A DNA stretch of 10,794 bases. Source: a bacterium (GTDB lineage: Bacteria > UBP18 > UBA7526). This document shows, piece by piece, positions 1,190-8,610 of this stretch. How positions within the stretch are numbered: position 1 is the stretch's first letter; each line of letters begins with the position of its first letter. The notes under the pieces were generated by a model. That model was not told the origin of the DNA, searched no databases, and worked only from the letters and a program-made list of their open reading frames with translations. The position numbers and the translations under genes are program-made. The DNA lies in NCBI GenBank assembly GCA_030615855.1, contig JAUWYL010000030.1, positions 1-10,794 of the forward strand. The letters run 5' to 3'.

Positions 1190-2053
1190 ATGAATCACTT
1201 TGTTTGCTCAAAGTATAATAGAATTCTTAGTGGGGTCTATATACTTTTTATTCGAGTTTCCCAGAAAAAGAGAATTGTGGTAGGAAGCTTGGGTAAAATT
1301 GCCTTTAGAAAAGGAACTTATCTCTATATTGGAAGATCGAAGACTAATCTTGCGGCAAGAATAGCAAGGCATTATAGAAAGAAGAAGAGATTATTCTGGC
1401 ATATAGACTATCTTCTCTCCCAGAAAGAAGCAGAGATAAAGGAAGTATGGATTGGTAGTGGCCTGACAGAGTGCAAATTGGCTCAGAAAATCTCTTTACT
1501 TCCTTCATCCTATTTGGTCAAAAAAGGTTTTGGCTCCTCCGATTGTAAATGCCCAGGACATCTCTTCTGTACCAATAGGAAAAGTGAAGTCAGAACCTTA
1601 TTGAAAGAAATGAACTTTGAGAAGTATGTTATGGGTGAAGTAATTGGGGTATGTTTGAGCAAAGAGAAGGAGAAACCCAAGAATAATGTGGAAAGGGGTT
1701 ATTTGAAAAAGGGCTTTGGCCTGGTGGGCGATGCTCATTTTGGAACAGAGAGGGAGGTAAGCCTCTTAGCCATAGAAGATGTAAAAAGGAAGGAACTTCC
1801 TTTTCTTTTCCGACCGGGGAACTTTGCCGAAAACATTACTACCCAGGGAATAGATATATTATCTCTACCCTTGAGGACAAGATTGAAAGTAGGAAAAACA
1901 ATATTAGAAGTGAGTCAGATTGGCAAGGGAAAAGGGCCCCATGCCTATTCCTATCGAGGCTATTCTCTTCTTCCTAAGTATGGGGTTTTCTGCAAAGTAG
2001 TAAAGAGCGACTGGATAAAGATCGGAGATAGGATAGAGGTGATTAGAAAGTGA
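1190..2053 (+). CDS. DUF123 (GIY-YIG-like) domain fused to a MOSC domain
   Basis: 287 residues in two domains. Residues ~14-127 match DUF123 (COG1833 type): SGVYIL, the VGSLGKIAF...YLYIGRS core, RIARHYRKKKRLFWHIDYLL, the Glu-Cys of TEC, and FGSSDCKCPGHLF with its Cys/His set. Residues ~148-285 match a small MOSC domain: GEVIGVCLSKEKE, GLVGDAHFG, EVSLLAIED, RPGNFAENITTQGIDILSLP and IKIGDRIEV. MOSC proteins of this size often carry cysteines after the IGK motif; here that stretch (IGKGKGPHAYSYRG, 244-257) has none, and Cys268 is the only nearby thiol. The ATG at 1190 has a weak SD (GCAGAAG), but the DUF123 core begins about 13 residues in, so this start fits. The stop overlaps the lipA start by four bases (GTGA). 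DUF123 function is not established; MOSC domains handle sulfur or molybdenum-cofactor substrates. A role in sulfur supply to lipoate synthesis is only inferred from position. Confidence 0.88.
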   Translation: MNHFVCSKYNRILSGVYILFIRVSQKKRIVVGSLGKIAFRKGTYLYIGRSKTNLAARIARHYRKKKRLFWHIDYLLSQKEAEIKEVWIGSGLTECKLAQKISLLPSSYLVKKGFGSSDCKCPGHLFCTNRKSEVRTLLKEMNFEKYVMGEVIGVCLSKEKEKPKNNVERGYLKKGFGLVGDAHFGTEREVSLLAIEDVKRKELPFLFRPGNFAENITTQGIDILSLPLRTRLKVGKTILEVSQIGKGKGPHAYSYRGYSLLPKYGVFCKVVKSDWIKIGDRIEVIRK

Positions 2054-2931
2054 TTGGAAGAAGGCATCCCGACTGGCTCAAAGTAAAGATCCCCTCTGGA
2101 AAAGAATATCACAGAATAAAATCTCTCTTGGCATCTTCCCGACTCTATACTATCTGTGAGGAAGCAAGTTGCCCCAATATCGCAGAGTGTTTTAGTAAAG
2201 GAATGGCTACCTTTCTAATTTTAGGAGATGTCTGCACCAGGAACTGCACCTACTGCAATGTCAAGACCTGTCTGCGTGCGGGCACGCACAGACAGGAGGG
2301 AACTCCTTTAGAAATAGATCTAAGTGAGCCAGAACGGGTAGCCAGAATAGTTAAGAAATTAAACCTCAATTATGTGGTCATTACCTCTGTTACCAGAGAC
2401 GATTTAATTGATGGTGGGGCGGATATCTTTGCCCAGACAATTCAGGCGGTAAAAAATCTATCTCCAAGAACAAGAATAGAAGTTCTTATCTCTGACTTCC
2501 AAGGAAATCGAGATTCACTTAAACGGGTGATTGATGCCAAGCCCTATGTCTTGGCCCATAATTTGGAGACAGTGGAAAGACTGTTTCTTACTATAAGACC
2601 CCAAGGGAATTATAGAAGGTCACTAAATCTCTTAAAAAAGGTTAGAGAAATAAGCCCAGATATTTTTACAAAATCGGGAATTATGGTCGGAATGGGGGAG
2701 ATAAAGGAAGAGATTGCAGAAGCTATGAAGGATTTGAGAAAAGTAGGCTGCGATATCTTCACCATTGGCCAATATCTCCAACCTTCTCTAAACCATCTTC
2801 CTATCAGTAAATACTACACCCCAGAGGAATTTAGAAAATTTAAAGAGATAGGGAAAGAGTTAGGCTTCTTACATGTTGAGTCTGGCCCCTTGGTCCGCAG
2901 TTCCTATCACGCAGCGGAGGCTATTCTTTAA
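2050..2931 (+). CDS. lipA: Lipoyl synthase LipA (radical SAM), with a ten-residue palindrome-encoded insert
   Basis: Inserts two sulfur atoms into octanoyl groups on lipoyl domains or GcvH, using two [4Fe-4S] clusters and SAM. The auxiliary-cluster cysteines C36-x4-C41-x5-C47 and the radical-SAM motif C62-x3-C66-x2-C69 are intact, as is the C-terminal RSSY (283-286) that ligates the auxiliary cluster. At 293 residues it has normal family length. The GTG start overlaps the upstream stop and has GAGGTGAT as SD, which suggests translational coupling. Unusual: residues 73-82 (TCLRAGTHRQ), directly after the CNVK of the radical-SAM loop, are encoded by a GC-rich palindrome (2267-2296). Removing those 30 bases restores the family pattern CNVK-EGTPLEIDL. 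The insert adds an extra cysteine (C74) close to the cluster-binding loop. Lipoyl synthase identity is secure; activity with the insert is inferred from the otherwise intact frame. Confidence 0.97.
   Translation: MIGRRHPDWLKVKIPSGKEYHRIKSLLASSRLYTICEEASCPNIAECFSKGMATFLILGDVCTRNCTYCNVKTCLRAGTHRQEGTPLEIDLSEPERVARIVKKLNLNYVVITSVTRDDLIDGGADIFAQTIQAVKNLSPRTRIEVLISDFQGNRDSLKRVIDAKPYVLAHNLETVERLFLTIRPQGNYRRSLNLLKKVREISPDIFTKSGIMVGMGEIKEEIAEAMKDLRKVGCDIFTIGQYLQPSLNHLPISKYYTPEEFRKFKEIGKELGFLHVESGPLVRSSYHAAEAIL
2267..2296. repeat. 30-bp GC-rich palindromic element inserted in frame within lipA
   Basis: CCTGTC+TGCGTGC (2267-2279) pairs with GCACGCA (2282-2288) and GACAGG (2291-2296), with a two-base bulge (CA) and a two-base centre. 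It is 21/30 G+C inside an AT-rich gene, and its 30 bases equal exactly ten codons. Confidence 0.85.
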
Positions 2932-3749
2932 TGGATTGGCGTTTTATTCAAGATAGTTATTACGGTGCCTATACCAATATGGCTATAGACGAGGCTCTAC
3001 TTCAAAGTGAAGTACCAGTAGTGAGATTTTATAGATGGAGACCACCTGCCATCTCCGTTGGTTACTTCCAGAAATTAGAAGAAGAGATAGATTTAGCAGA
3101 ATGTAAGAGACGGGGAATAGACTATGTGAGACGCATTACTGGCGGGAAGGCGGTCTTGCATGATAGGGAATTGACCTATTCTTTTGTCATCTCTCAAGAA
3201 TTGATGCCCAAGAGCATCACAGAATCCTATAAAGCCATTAGTCAAGCAATCTTAACTGCCTTAAGAAACTTGGGTCTCAAGGTCGAAATGAACCCCGCAC
3301 CTTTAAGCAAGGGCAGAGTAAACATCAAAAGGTGCGGGGTGAAAGAGAAGATCTCTCAGGCCCAAAAATCCTCCCTCTGTTTTGATACCCCTTCTTATTA
3401 TGAAATTATAGTCAACGGTAAAAAGATTGTTGGCTCTGCCCAGGTGAGGAAGAATGGTAAAATCTTGCAACACGGAAGCATTCTCATTGATATAGATATA
3501 GAGAAGATGTGTTCTCTCTTTAAGGGAGGCGGCAAAATCTCTCAAGTGCAGGAAAAAGTTACCTCATTGAATAATGAGTTGGAAAAGGAAATAGAGTTTA
3601 AAGACCTCGCCCCCGCACTTAAAAAAGGCTTTGAAGAAAACTTCAATATCAAGTTAATCCCTGATGAATTGACAAGAAAAGAAAGTGTCCTTGCTCAAGA
3701 GATAGCGGCCACAAAGTTCAGCACAAGAAAATGGAACTATCTTCGATAA
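2931..3749 (+). CDS. lipM: Octanoyl-[ACP]:protein octanoyltransferase, LipM type
   Basis: 272 residues of the BPL/LplA/LipB fold. It transfers octanoate from ACP to a lipoyl-accepting carrier such as GcvH, making the substrate for the adjacent LipA. Motifs: NMAIDEALL (16-24), RFYRWRPPAISVGYFQ, RRITGGKAVLHDRELTYS (67-84), CFDTPSYYEI with Cys150 (150-159), GKKIVGSAQVR and ILQHGSILID (178-187). The CFD-PS-YE context of the cysteine is that of the LipM catalytic cysteine. This argues against a lipoate-protein ligase (LplA), which lacks it, although ligase activity cannot be fully excluded. ATG overlaps the lipA TAA by one base (TAATG). Residues ~121-137, in the variable loop before Cys150, are encoded by a 49-nt inverted repeat (3292-3340), making this loop about ten residues longer than I recall for the Bacillus protein. 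Confidence 0.92.
   Translation: MDWRFIQDSYYGAYTNMAIDEALLQSEVPVVRFYRWRPPAISVGYFQKLEEEIDLAECKRRGIDYVRRITGGKAVLHDRELTYSFVISQELMPKSITESYKAISQAILTALRNLGLKVEMNPAPLSKGRVNIKRCGVKEKISQAQKSSLCFDTPSYYEIIVNGKKIVGSAQVRKNGKILQHGSILIDIDIEKMCSLFKGGGKISQVQEKVTSLNNELEKEIEFKDLAPALKKGFEENFNIKLIPDELTRKESVLAQEIAATKFSTRKWNYLR
3292..3340. repeat. Inverted repeat with 13-bp perfect arms inside lipM
   Basis: ACCCCGCACCTTT (3292-3304) and AAAGGTGCGGGGT (3328-3340) flank a 23-base loop. The GC-rich arms stand out from the AT-rich gene. It is unrelated in sequence to the palindrome in lipA. Confidence 0.85.
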
Positions 3750-6515: not shown

Positions 6516-6600
6516 TTCCAAATTCTCAATAATTTAAAAATAATAAGGAAGCCTTTCGCTTCGCTCAAGAACCTTGTTTCTTTACTATTGCTCAGAAATA
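6516..6600. repeat. Dispersed intergenic element, copy 2
   Basis: 6516-6541 is a diverged copy of the palindrome at 4419-4444: same arms TTCCAAATTCT and AATTTNNAAAT, altered centre. It is followed at 6551-6579 by a 29-base segment (GCCTTTCGCT, then GCTCAAGAACCTTGTTT) that recurs almost identically at 8562-8591. No gene is visible in 6479-6661. Confidence 0.8.
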
Positions 6601-8152: not shown

Positions 8153-8464
8153 ATGGTTTTCTGGAGGAAAGAAGAGAAGAAGCCAGAAGAACCGAAACCT
8201 GAGTTCCCAAGACCAGAAGTTCCTAAGCCAGAGGTGCCTAAGCCAGAGGCTCCAAAACCTGAAGTTCCGAAGCCAGAAGTACCAAGGCCAGAGGCACCGA
8301 AGCCTGAGGTGCCAATGCCGGAAGCTCCGAAGCCTGAAGTGCCAAAACCCGAGGCACCCAAACCTGAGTTTCCAAAACCTGAGGTTCCCAAGCCCGAAGC
8401 ACCCAAACCAGAGATTCCTAAACCAGAGGAGCCAAAACCAGGAGAACCGGGCAAACCTTTTTAA
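8153..8464 (+). CDS. Pro-Lys-Glu pentapeptide-repeat (PKPEV/A) low-complexity protein
   Basis: 103 residues. After a short N-terminus (MVFWRKEEKK) the whole protein is about 17 copies of P-[K/R/M]-P-E-[V/A/F/I/E], ending GEPGKPF. No signal peptide or membrane helix is visible. Proline at every second or third place with alternating Lys and Glu predicts a stiff polyproline-II-like rod of near-zero net charge, like the periplasmic spacer of TonB proteins, but without either end domain. The SD AGGAGGT (8141-8147) is ideal. The units vary mostly at synonymous third positions, so the amino-acid pattern rather than the DNA repeat appears to be kept. An open frame on the opposite strand (Gly-Ser rich) is only its mirror. 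Function unknown. Confidence 0.8.
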   Translation: MVFWRKEEKKPEEPKPEFPRPEVPKPEVPKPEAPKPEVPKPEVPRPEAPKPEVPMPEAPKPEVPKPEAPKPEFPKPEVPKPEAPKPEIPKPEEPKPGEPGKPF

Positions 8465-8540: not shown

Positions 8541-8610
8541 TAAGAATTTGAAAATAAGAAAGCCTTTCGCTAATGCTCAAGAACCTTGTTTTCTCACTTT
8601 GTTCGAAAAT
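8541..8610. repeat. Dispersed intergenic element, copy 3
   Basis: TAAGAATTTGAAAAT at the start is a half of the palindrome at 4419-4444. The segment 8562-8591 matches 6551-6579 except for TC replaced by AAT. The order palindrome-then-segment is the same in both copies. Confidence 0.8.

Follow-up and report, generated by a model that had tools for sequence, protein, structure and literature searches.

Movement without target duplication, an asymmetric short site preference and an imperfect hairpin are typical of the IS200/IS605 and REP/RAYT families. The small dispersed repeats of cyanobacteria are very small units, which Elhai reportedly described in 2008 as mobile, hairpin-forming sequences of 21–27 bp, some of them inside genes; to our knowledge, these repeats are confined to cyanobacteria. 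REPs carry GTAG or CGTC tags, are abundant and mostly extragenic, and have RAYT transposases (PMC3733652; PMC8266576). MITEs are 70–300 bp in length, and their terminal repeats are those of an insertion sequence that can be identified (PMC10969869). Rickettsia palindromic elements (RPEs; PMC10969869, citing Ogata 2000; PMC3733652 for RPE-4 and RPE-6) are ∼150 bp long or CGTC-tagged, and are multi-copy in Rickettsia. In-frame palindromic elements have so far been mainly a Rickettsia story.

The locus described here lies in the window, meaning the whole stretch of DNA that was analysed (10,794 nucleotides). It belongs to a genome (G000) of 1.375 Mb in 45 contigs that is 93.6% complete, from which stretches amounting to ∼577 kb were read. 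Two relatives serve for comparison: G002 is of the same genus, and G003 is of another genus in the same family. The lipA gene of the window matches its family profile as an intact gene and is under purifying selection (Table 1). Directly upstream of it, a DUF123 (PF01986)–MOSC domain fusion occupies positions 1190–2053 and is conserved in G002. Within lipA stand 30 bases, CCTGTCTGCGTGCGGGCACGCACAGACAGG, that form an imperfect palindrome of 70% G+C. An earlier reading of the sequence (the original prediction) had reported these coordinates and this base composition, as well as 13 + 13 pairing with one 2-nt bulge, and all of these were reproduced on the window sequence. Folded as single-stranded DNA, the 30-mer reaches −11.3 kcal/mol (z = −3.5), and none of 200 shuffled sequences was equally stable. 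The minimum-energy form has 12 pairs: an 8-bp outer stem, the 2-nt bulge, a 4-bp inner stem and a tetraloop. The focal copy has CAGACAGG instead of CAGGCAGG as its right outer arm, so that a T·G wobble becomes a T–A pair. The window holds no second copy with up to three mismatches, the shuffling expectation being 0.

Table 1. Positions and properties of the palindromic elements and their surroundings, numbered along the window.
Feature	Position	Strand	Remarks
lipA, lipoyl synthase, host of the insertion	2050..2931	+	TIGR00510, 375 bits (cut-off 310); dN/dS 0.095 against G002
30-bp palindromic element	2267..2296	+	Cross-phylum family CCTGTCTGCGTGCGNNCACGCACAGGCAGG; encodes TCLRAGTHRQ in lipA; empty site in G003
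Left outer arm CCTGTCTG	2267..2274	+	Pairs with 2289–2296; fold and position-wise conservation
Right outer arm CAGACAGG	2289..2296	+	Most family members have CAGGCAGG here, hence a T·G wobble
Left flank GTCAAGA	2260..2266	+	−1 is A, the base found there at 19 of 30 independent sites
Right flank AGGGAACT	2297..2304	+	+4 is G, the base found there at 19 of 30 sites; no target site duplication
Second, older-looking palindromic segment, in lplA	3292..3340	+	13-bp arms ACCCCGCACCTTT / AAAGGTGCGGGGT, 23 nt between them
Loci of the local CCCCGC family in G000–G004			L047, L054, L064, L066, L069, L070, L074, L076, L078, L081, L084–L088, L107, L195

In G003 the corresponding site is empty and reads ATCAAGAAGGGAACT, where the window reads GTCAAGA, the 30 nt and then AGGGAACT; the event in lipA is therefore an exact insertion, with neither duplication nor loss. 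The in-frame palindrome of 30 bp is thus confirmed as a clean insertion against an empty site. Excising it yields CNVKKGTP, which is identical to G002, and G003 has CNIKKGTP, differing at one unrelated residue. The junction that had been expected on deletion holds on its CNVK side; the residue before GTP is not Glu as proposed, since the exact cut joins A to AG and gives Lys (K-GTPLEIDL). As this restored Lys matches both G002 and G003, the edges of the insert are supported. LipA matches were obtained in 52 of 60 genomes; loci from the best 30 of these were used, together with contigs from GTDB. Apart from the window, the LipA proteins examined from this set lack this insert, the CX3CX2C motif running directly into the usual GxP stretch, and lipA of G002 is likewise without it. 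An alignment of relatives therefore gives what the original prediction had anticipated, an insert with clean edges that is absent elsewhere, and conservation of the ten residues in distant LipA proteins, which would have spoken against it, was seen in none of those examined. In the protein the insert comes after the first strand and before the first long helix past the cluster motif, and a structure model has low confidence (pLDDT < 50) at residues 43–87, a range that spans the loop region.

Searched with up to three mismatches, the focal 30-mer appears in 14 of 290 genomes, from 12 families and at least three phyla, with 28 matches in total against a chance expectation of ∼1e-4 over those genomes (a hand estimate from word statistics). 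The reversed pattern gives 0 in every one of the 290. All 13 carriers other than G000 are labelled as related to the window at domain level only. The phylum of one carrier, G120, has just three genomes in the collection and is consequently distinct from the phyla of the other carriers, hence the count of at least three. A refined search with the family consensus CCTGTCTGCGTGCGNNCACGCACAGGCAGG at 0–3 mismatches again left the control at 0, and exact consensus copies stand on eight viral contigs. The arms are near invariant, while core positions 15–16 vary. Carrier genomes have between one and 12 copies. Further copies in the source genome had been proposed as a check, their absence counting against the original prediction, and on this point it is not supported: G000 has a single copy within three mismatches, and a search for the arm pair CCTGTCTG..CAGACAGG returns the focal copy alone. 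Copies occur in other phyla instead, which are a stronger sign of mobility than copies within the genome. Collections comprising 7.3 Gb of plasmid and 2.3 Gb of phage sequence contained no real match. For the most part the carriers appear to be metagenome-assembled genomes, and the in-gene copies at L144 and L157 are known from assemblies, not confirmed in raw reads. Mobility is read from this distribution, no movement having been observed. Among the papers searched, no relevant one contained the 14 leading bases of the 30-mer, and no cross-phylum in-frame palindromes turned up. At three loci of G120 (L150, L152 and L155) the copies abut a second, AT-rich hairpin AATGTCAAAAGTATTTGACATT within a longer repeat of 120–600 bp. 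Around the G120 copies, some of which sit in such repeats, no shared gene of a larger mobile unit was seen.

Copies of the 30-mer also interrupt other conserved genes. In a BrxC-like (BREX) gene on the viral contig IMGVR_UViG_3300022699_000433 the insertion is exact (TCLRAGTHRQEG): the protein reads ERF-TCLRAGTHRQ-EGEQ where two homologues, with 73% and 60% identity, both lack the block and have ERFK, and taking out the 30 nt brings back the conserved Lys codon. In G278, a ResIII-type helicase (L144; Pfam PF04851) has VYLD-TCLRADTHRQ-ATLK, and the block is missing from its plasmid homologues. A weaker further case is an integrase-like frame in G151, with the peptide PVCVRSRTGR. The inserted peptide tracks the element and not the host protein. 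Because the same TCLRA(G/D)THRQ peptide is found in BrxC and the helicase, the extra cysteine near the LipA cluster (C74), to which the original prediction had drawn attention as a neighbour of the cluster ligands, is incidental. For annotators, TCLRA(G/D)THRQ, PVCVR.RTGR and the reverse-strand readings provide a signature of inserts foreign to a protein family. With an exact empty site and copies in other phyla and genes, the proposal of a mobile palindromic element tolerated in frame is supported.

None of 33 distinct sites has a flanking repeat of 3 nt or more that could be a target site duplication. Of 30 independent sites, 27 have a purine at position −1 (A in 19 of them), 19 have G at +4, 15 have T at +5, and none has T at +2 (p ≤ 0.001 for −1, +2 and +4; p = 0.01 for +5). 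These counts point to a target bias that is weak but common to the copies.

The 30-mer resembles REPs as an imperfect hairpin in the range of 20–40 bp with occasional intragenic copies, and its missing target duplication fits the single-strand chemistry of RAYT transposases. It differs from them in having no GTAG or CGTC tag (the flanks are AAGA and AGGG, and the 30-site logo has none either) and in its low copy number. Nor is there a RAYT gene (PF01797) in the six genomes of the window's family (G000–G005), and none of the 20 Y1 loci seen elsewhere, nearly all of them in carriers, has a palindrome of the family within ∼1.5 kb. The resemblance to IS200/IS605 and REP/RAYT is accordingly best regarded as analogy, not membership. 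With RPEs the element shares palindromic DNA in frame inside protein-coding genes whose products tolerate it. The RPE label of the original prediction nevertheless fails on sequence and size: the element is 30 bp long, has no CGTC at either end, is single-copy in G000 and extends over several phyla. Like MITEs, it is non-autonomous with inverted repeats; unlike them, it makes no target duplication. Among neighbours within 1.5 kb of its copies, no recurrent gene of a parent insertion sequence was seen. The cyanobacterial small dispersed repeats, compared by description only, are alike in being very small hairpin repeats that are sometimes in genes.

A second family of palindromes, with the structure CCCCGCCCCT-core-AGGAGCGGGG or close variants, is multi-copy in the window's own bacterial family (G000–G004). 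Its arms match 8–16 times per genome versus 1–2 times for the reversed pattern, and a stricter pattern also recovers it. The units are 25–26 bp long, and many have direct repeats of 4–5 bp, mostly TAAA, TTTA, TGAA or TTCA, the total usually being 30 bp (26 + 4 or 25 + 5). As target duplications, these repeats are a feature shared with MITEs; the focal 30-mer has neither them nor the CCCCG..CGGGG arms. The lipA gene of G002 has two inserts of this family, ten residues each and elsewhere in the gene: one within the segment NEPRPSQTGRGEPERV, the other NPAPARRSGV. Further in-frame hosts, assigned by translation and not by profile, are KDO transferase, PriA (two in tandem), HypF, an HisC-like aminotransferase, asparagine synthase, N-acetylmuramoyl-L-alanine amidase, PilM and hydrogenase-type subunits. 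No match to the family was found in viral contigs. A frame rule was considered for these copies and rejected: lengths are multiples of three in 15 of 17 genic copies versus five of eight others, a difference that is not significant (Fisher p = 0.28). As for the genic exceptions in length, L110 seems to share its site with copies that fall outside long frames in G001 and G002, and L074 is half of a tandem pair. Multi-copy and in frame in conserved genes, this local family is RPE-like in its behaviour.

That the focal insert is a diverged member of the local family might be suspected, given that this family inserts in frame, usually with 30 bp, in the lipA of G002 too. The arms are different, however, a unit of 25–26 bp with a 4–5 bp duplication is opposed to 30 bp without any, and the CCTGTCTG..CAGACAGG arms match nothing else in G000, all of which makes membership very unlikely. 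Formation of the palindrome in place, through quasi-palindrome template switching or repair slippage and with no mobile element, would account for a single copy in G000 and for the absence of target duplication; it deserves next to no credence, and as regards the identity of the sequence it is refuted, when a specific 30-mer with almost invariant arms recurs in at least three phyla, with chance at ∼0 and reversed controls at 0. An assembly or library artefact of metagenome data is highly improbable. Carriers are mostly apparent metagenome assemblies and the plasmid and phage collections contain none, as such an artefact would have it, but an exact in-frame insertion restores a conserved codon in two unrelated genes, and the target site is biased yet varied, with many different core variants. 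It is also very improbable that the insert is a functional feature of LipA, whether as a loop or extra Cys that tunes the enzyme or as an mRNA hairpin that regulates lipA. The gene is functional and the insert lies five residues beyond the final cluster ligand, which is suggestive of a role; against this, the insert is in no other LipA examined, the same peptide occurs in unrelated proteins, and the window has no Rfam match. Most likely, the ten extra residues do nothing useful for LipA.

The 30 bp quite probably represent one copy of a tiny, non-autonomous palindrome that is mobile among bacteria of different phyla, and in its behaviour it ranks with the smallest known mobile elements that leave their host genes intact. 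A single exact 30-bp insertion into an ancestral AAGA^AGGG site of lipA took place after the split from G002 and G003. At 30 nt, and usually stop-free in all six frames, such an insertion adds ten residues and leaves the gene unbroken, so in-gene copies survive where a loop tolerates them. The element may move as a single-stranded hairpin that is cut and joined in trans by a Y1/HUH-type enzyme, a route suggested by the combination of no duplication, an asymmetric site and an imperfect hairpin that typifies IS200/IS605 and REP/RAYT chemistry. Because the window's genome has no detectable Y1 transposase and a single copy, the enzyme or the element would have been brought by incoming DNA. Y1 genes are present in 11 of the 13 other carriers versus 156 of 277 remaining genomes (p ∼0.04 by hand, and weaker with G000 added to the carriers). 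A linked Y1/RAYT mobiliser was rejected on account of its absence from the window's family, this weak association elsewhere and the lack of adjacency, and no gene was found to recur within 1.5 kb of independent copies.

In G039 an HsdS frame (L129, reverse strand ∼900–1200; L217; G039:C244) has an in-frame GIY-YIG domain directly after a palindrome, CCTGCCTGCCGGCAGGCAGG; on the same contig, a copy of the 30-mer stands ∼0.7 kb from it, close to the opposite end of the HsdS frame. The same element could have travelled by a duplication-free route other than Y1, such as a single-stranded DNA hairpin repair patch, an RNA hairpin copied by reverse transcription or a homing-type nuclease like GIY-YIG, and this is a serious possibility, if somewhat short of an even one. 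It is favoured by the absence of a Y1 gene in the window's family and by the G039 arrangement, in which the palindrome is a related one. Just one of 30 GIY-YIG loci (that of the G039 HsdS), however, has an abutting GC-rich palindrome of such a kind, and GIY-YIG was discarded as a general mobiliser; the site bias argues for a sequence-reading enzyme and against passive repair.

Under the preferred reading of a mobile palindrome, the occurrence of a near-invariant 30-bp element in at least three phyla, and within conserved proteins that are unrelated, suggests that DNA of very small size moves between distant bacteria, thereby adding the same ten-residue peptide to their proteins. A defined 30-mer with empty and filled sites also makes transposase-unlinked, REP-like movement testable. 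It can tentatively be proposed, as the less probable case, that the 30-bp palindrome, usually free of stops, moves across phyla as a unit that has a target preference of its own and a putative mobiliser, and that its length (30 bp without duplication, or 25–26 bp plus 4–5 bp in the local family) is selected for frame. If true, such gene-compatible micro-elements would form a class apart from REP, RPE and MITE.

Other parts of the window contain repeats of their own. In lplA, which is under purifying selection (dN/dS 0.097), the segment at 3283–3345 that encloses the second palindrome adds residues to LplA; it is absent from G002 and partly present in G003. The lplA of G002 has a fragment of similar sequence, AAAAGGTGCGGGG, ∼80 codons downstream, and that of G003 has a shorter related block. 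A dispersed repeat, AAGCCTTTCGCT..GCTCAAGAACCTTGTTT, occurs in two intergenic copies at 6549–6590 and 8560–8600, and indels similar to this repeat distinguish G000 from G002 (L127 versus L096). Between the two, at 8153–8464, a frame of 103 residues consists of a short N-terminal segment followed almost wholly by KPEVP/KPEAP repeats.
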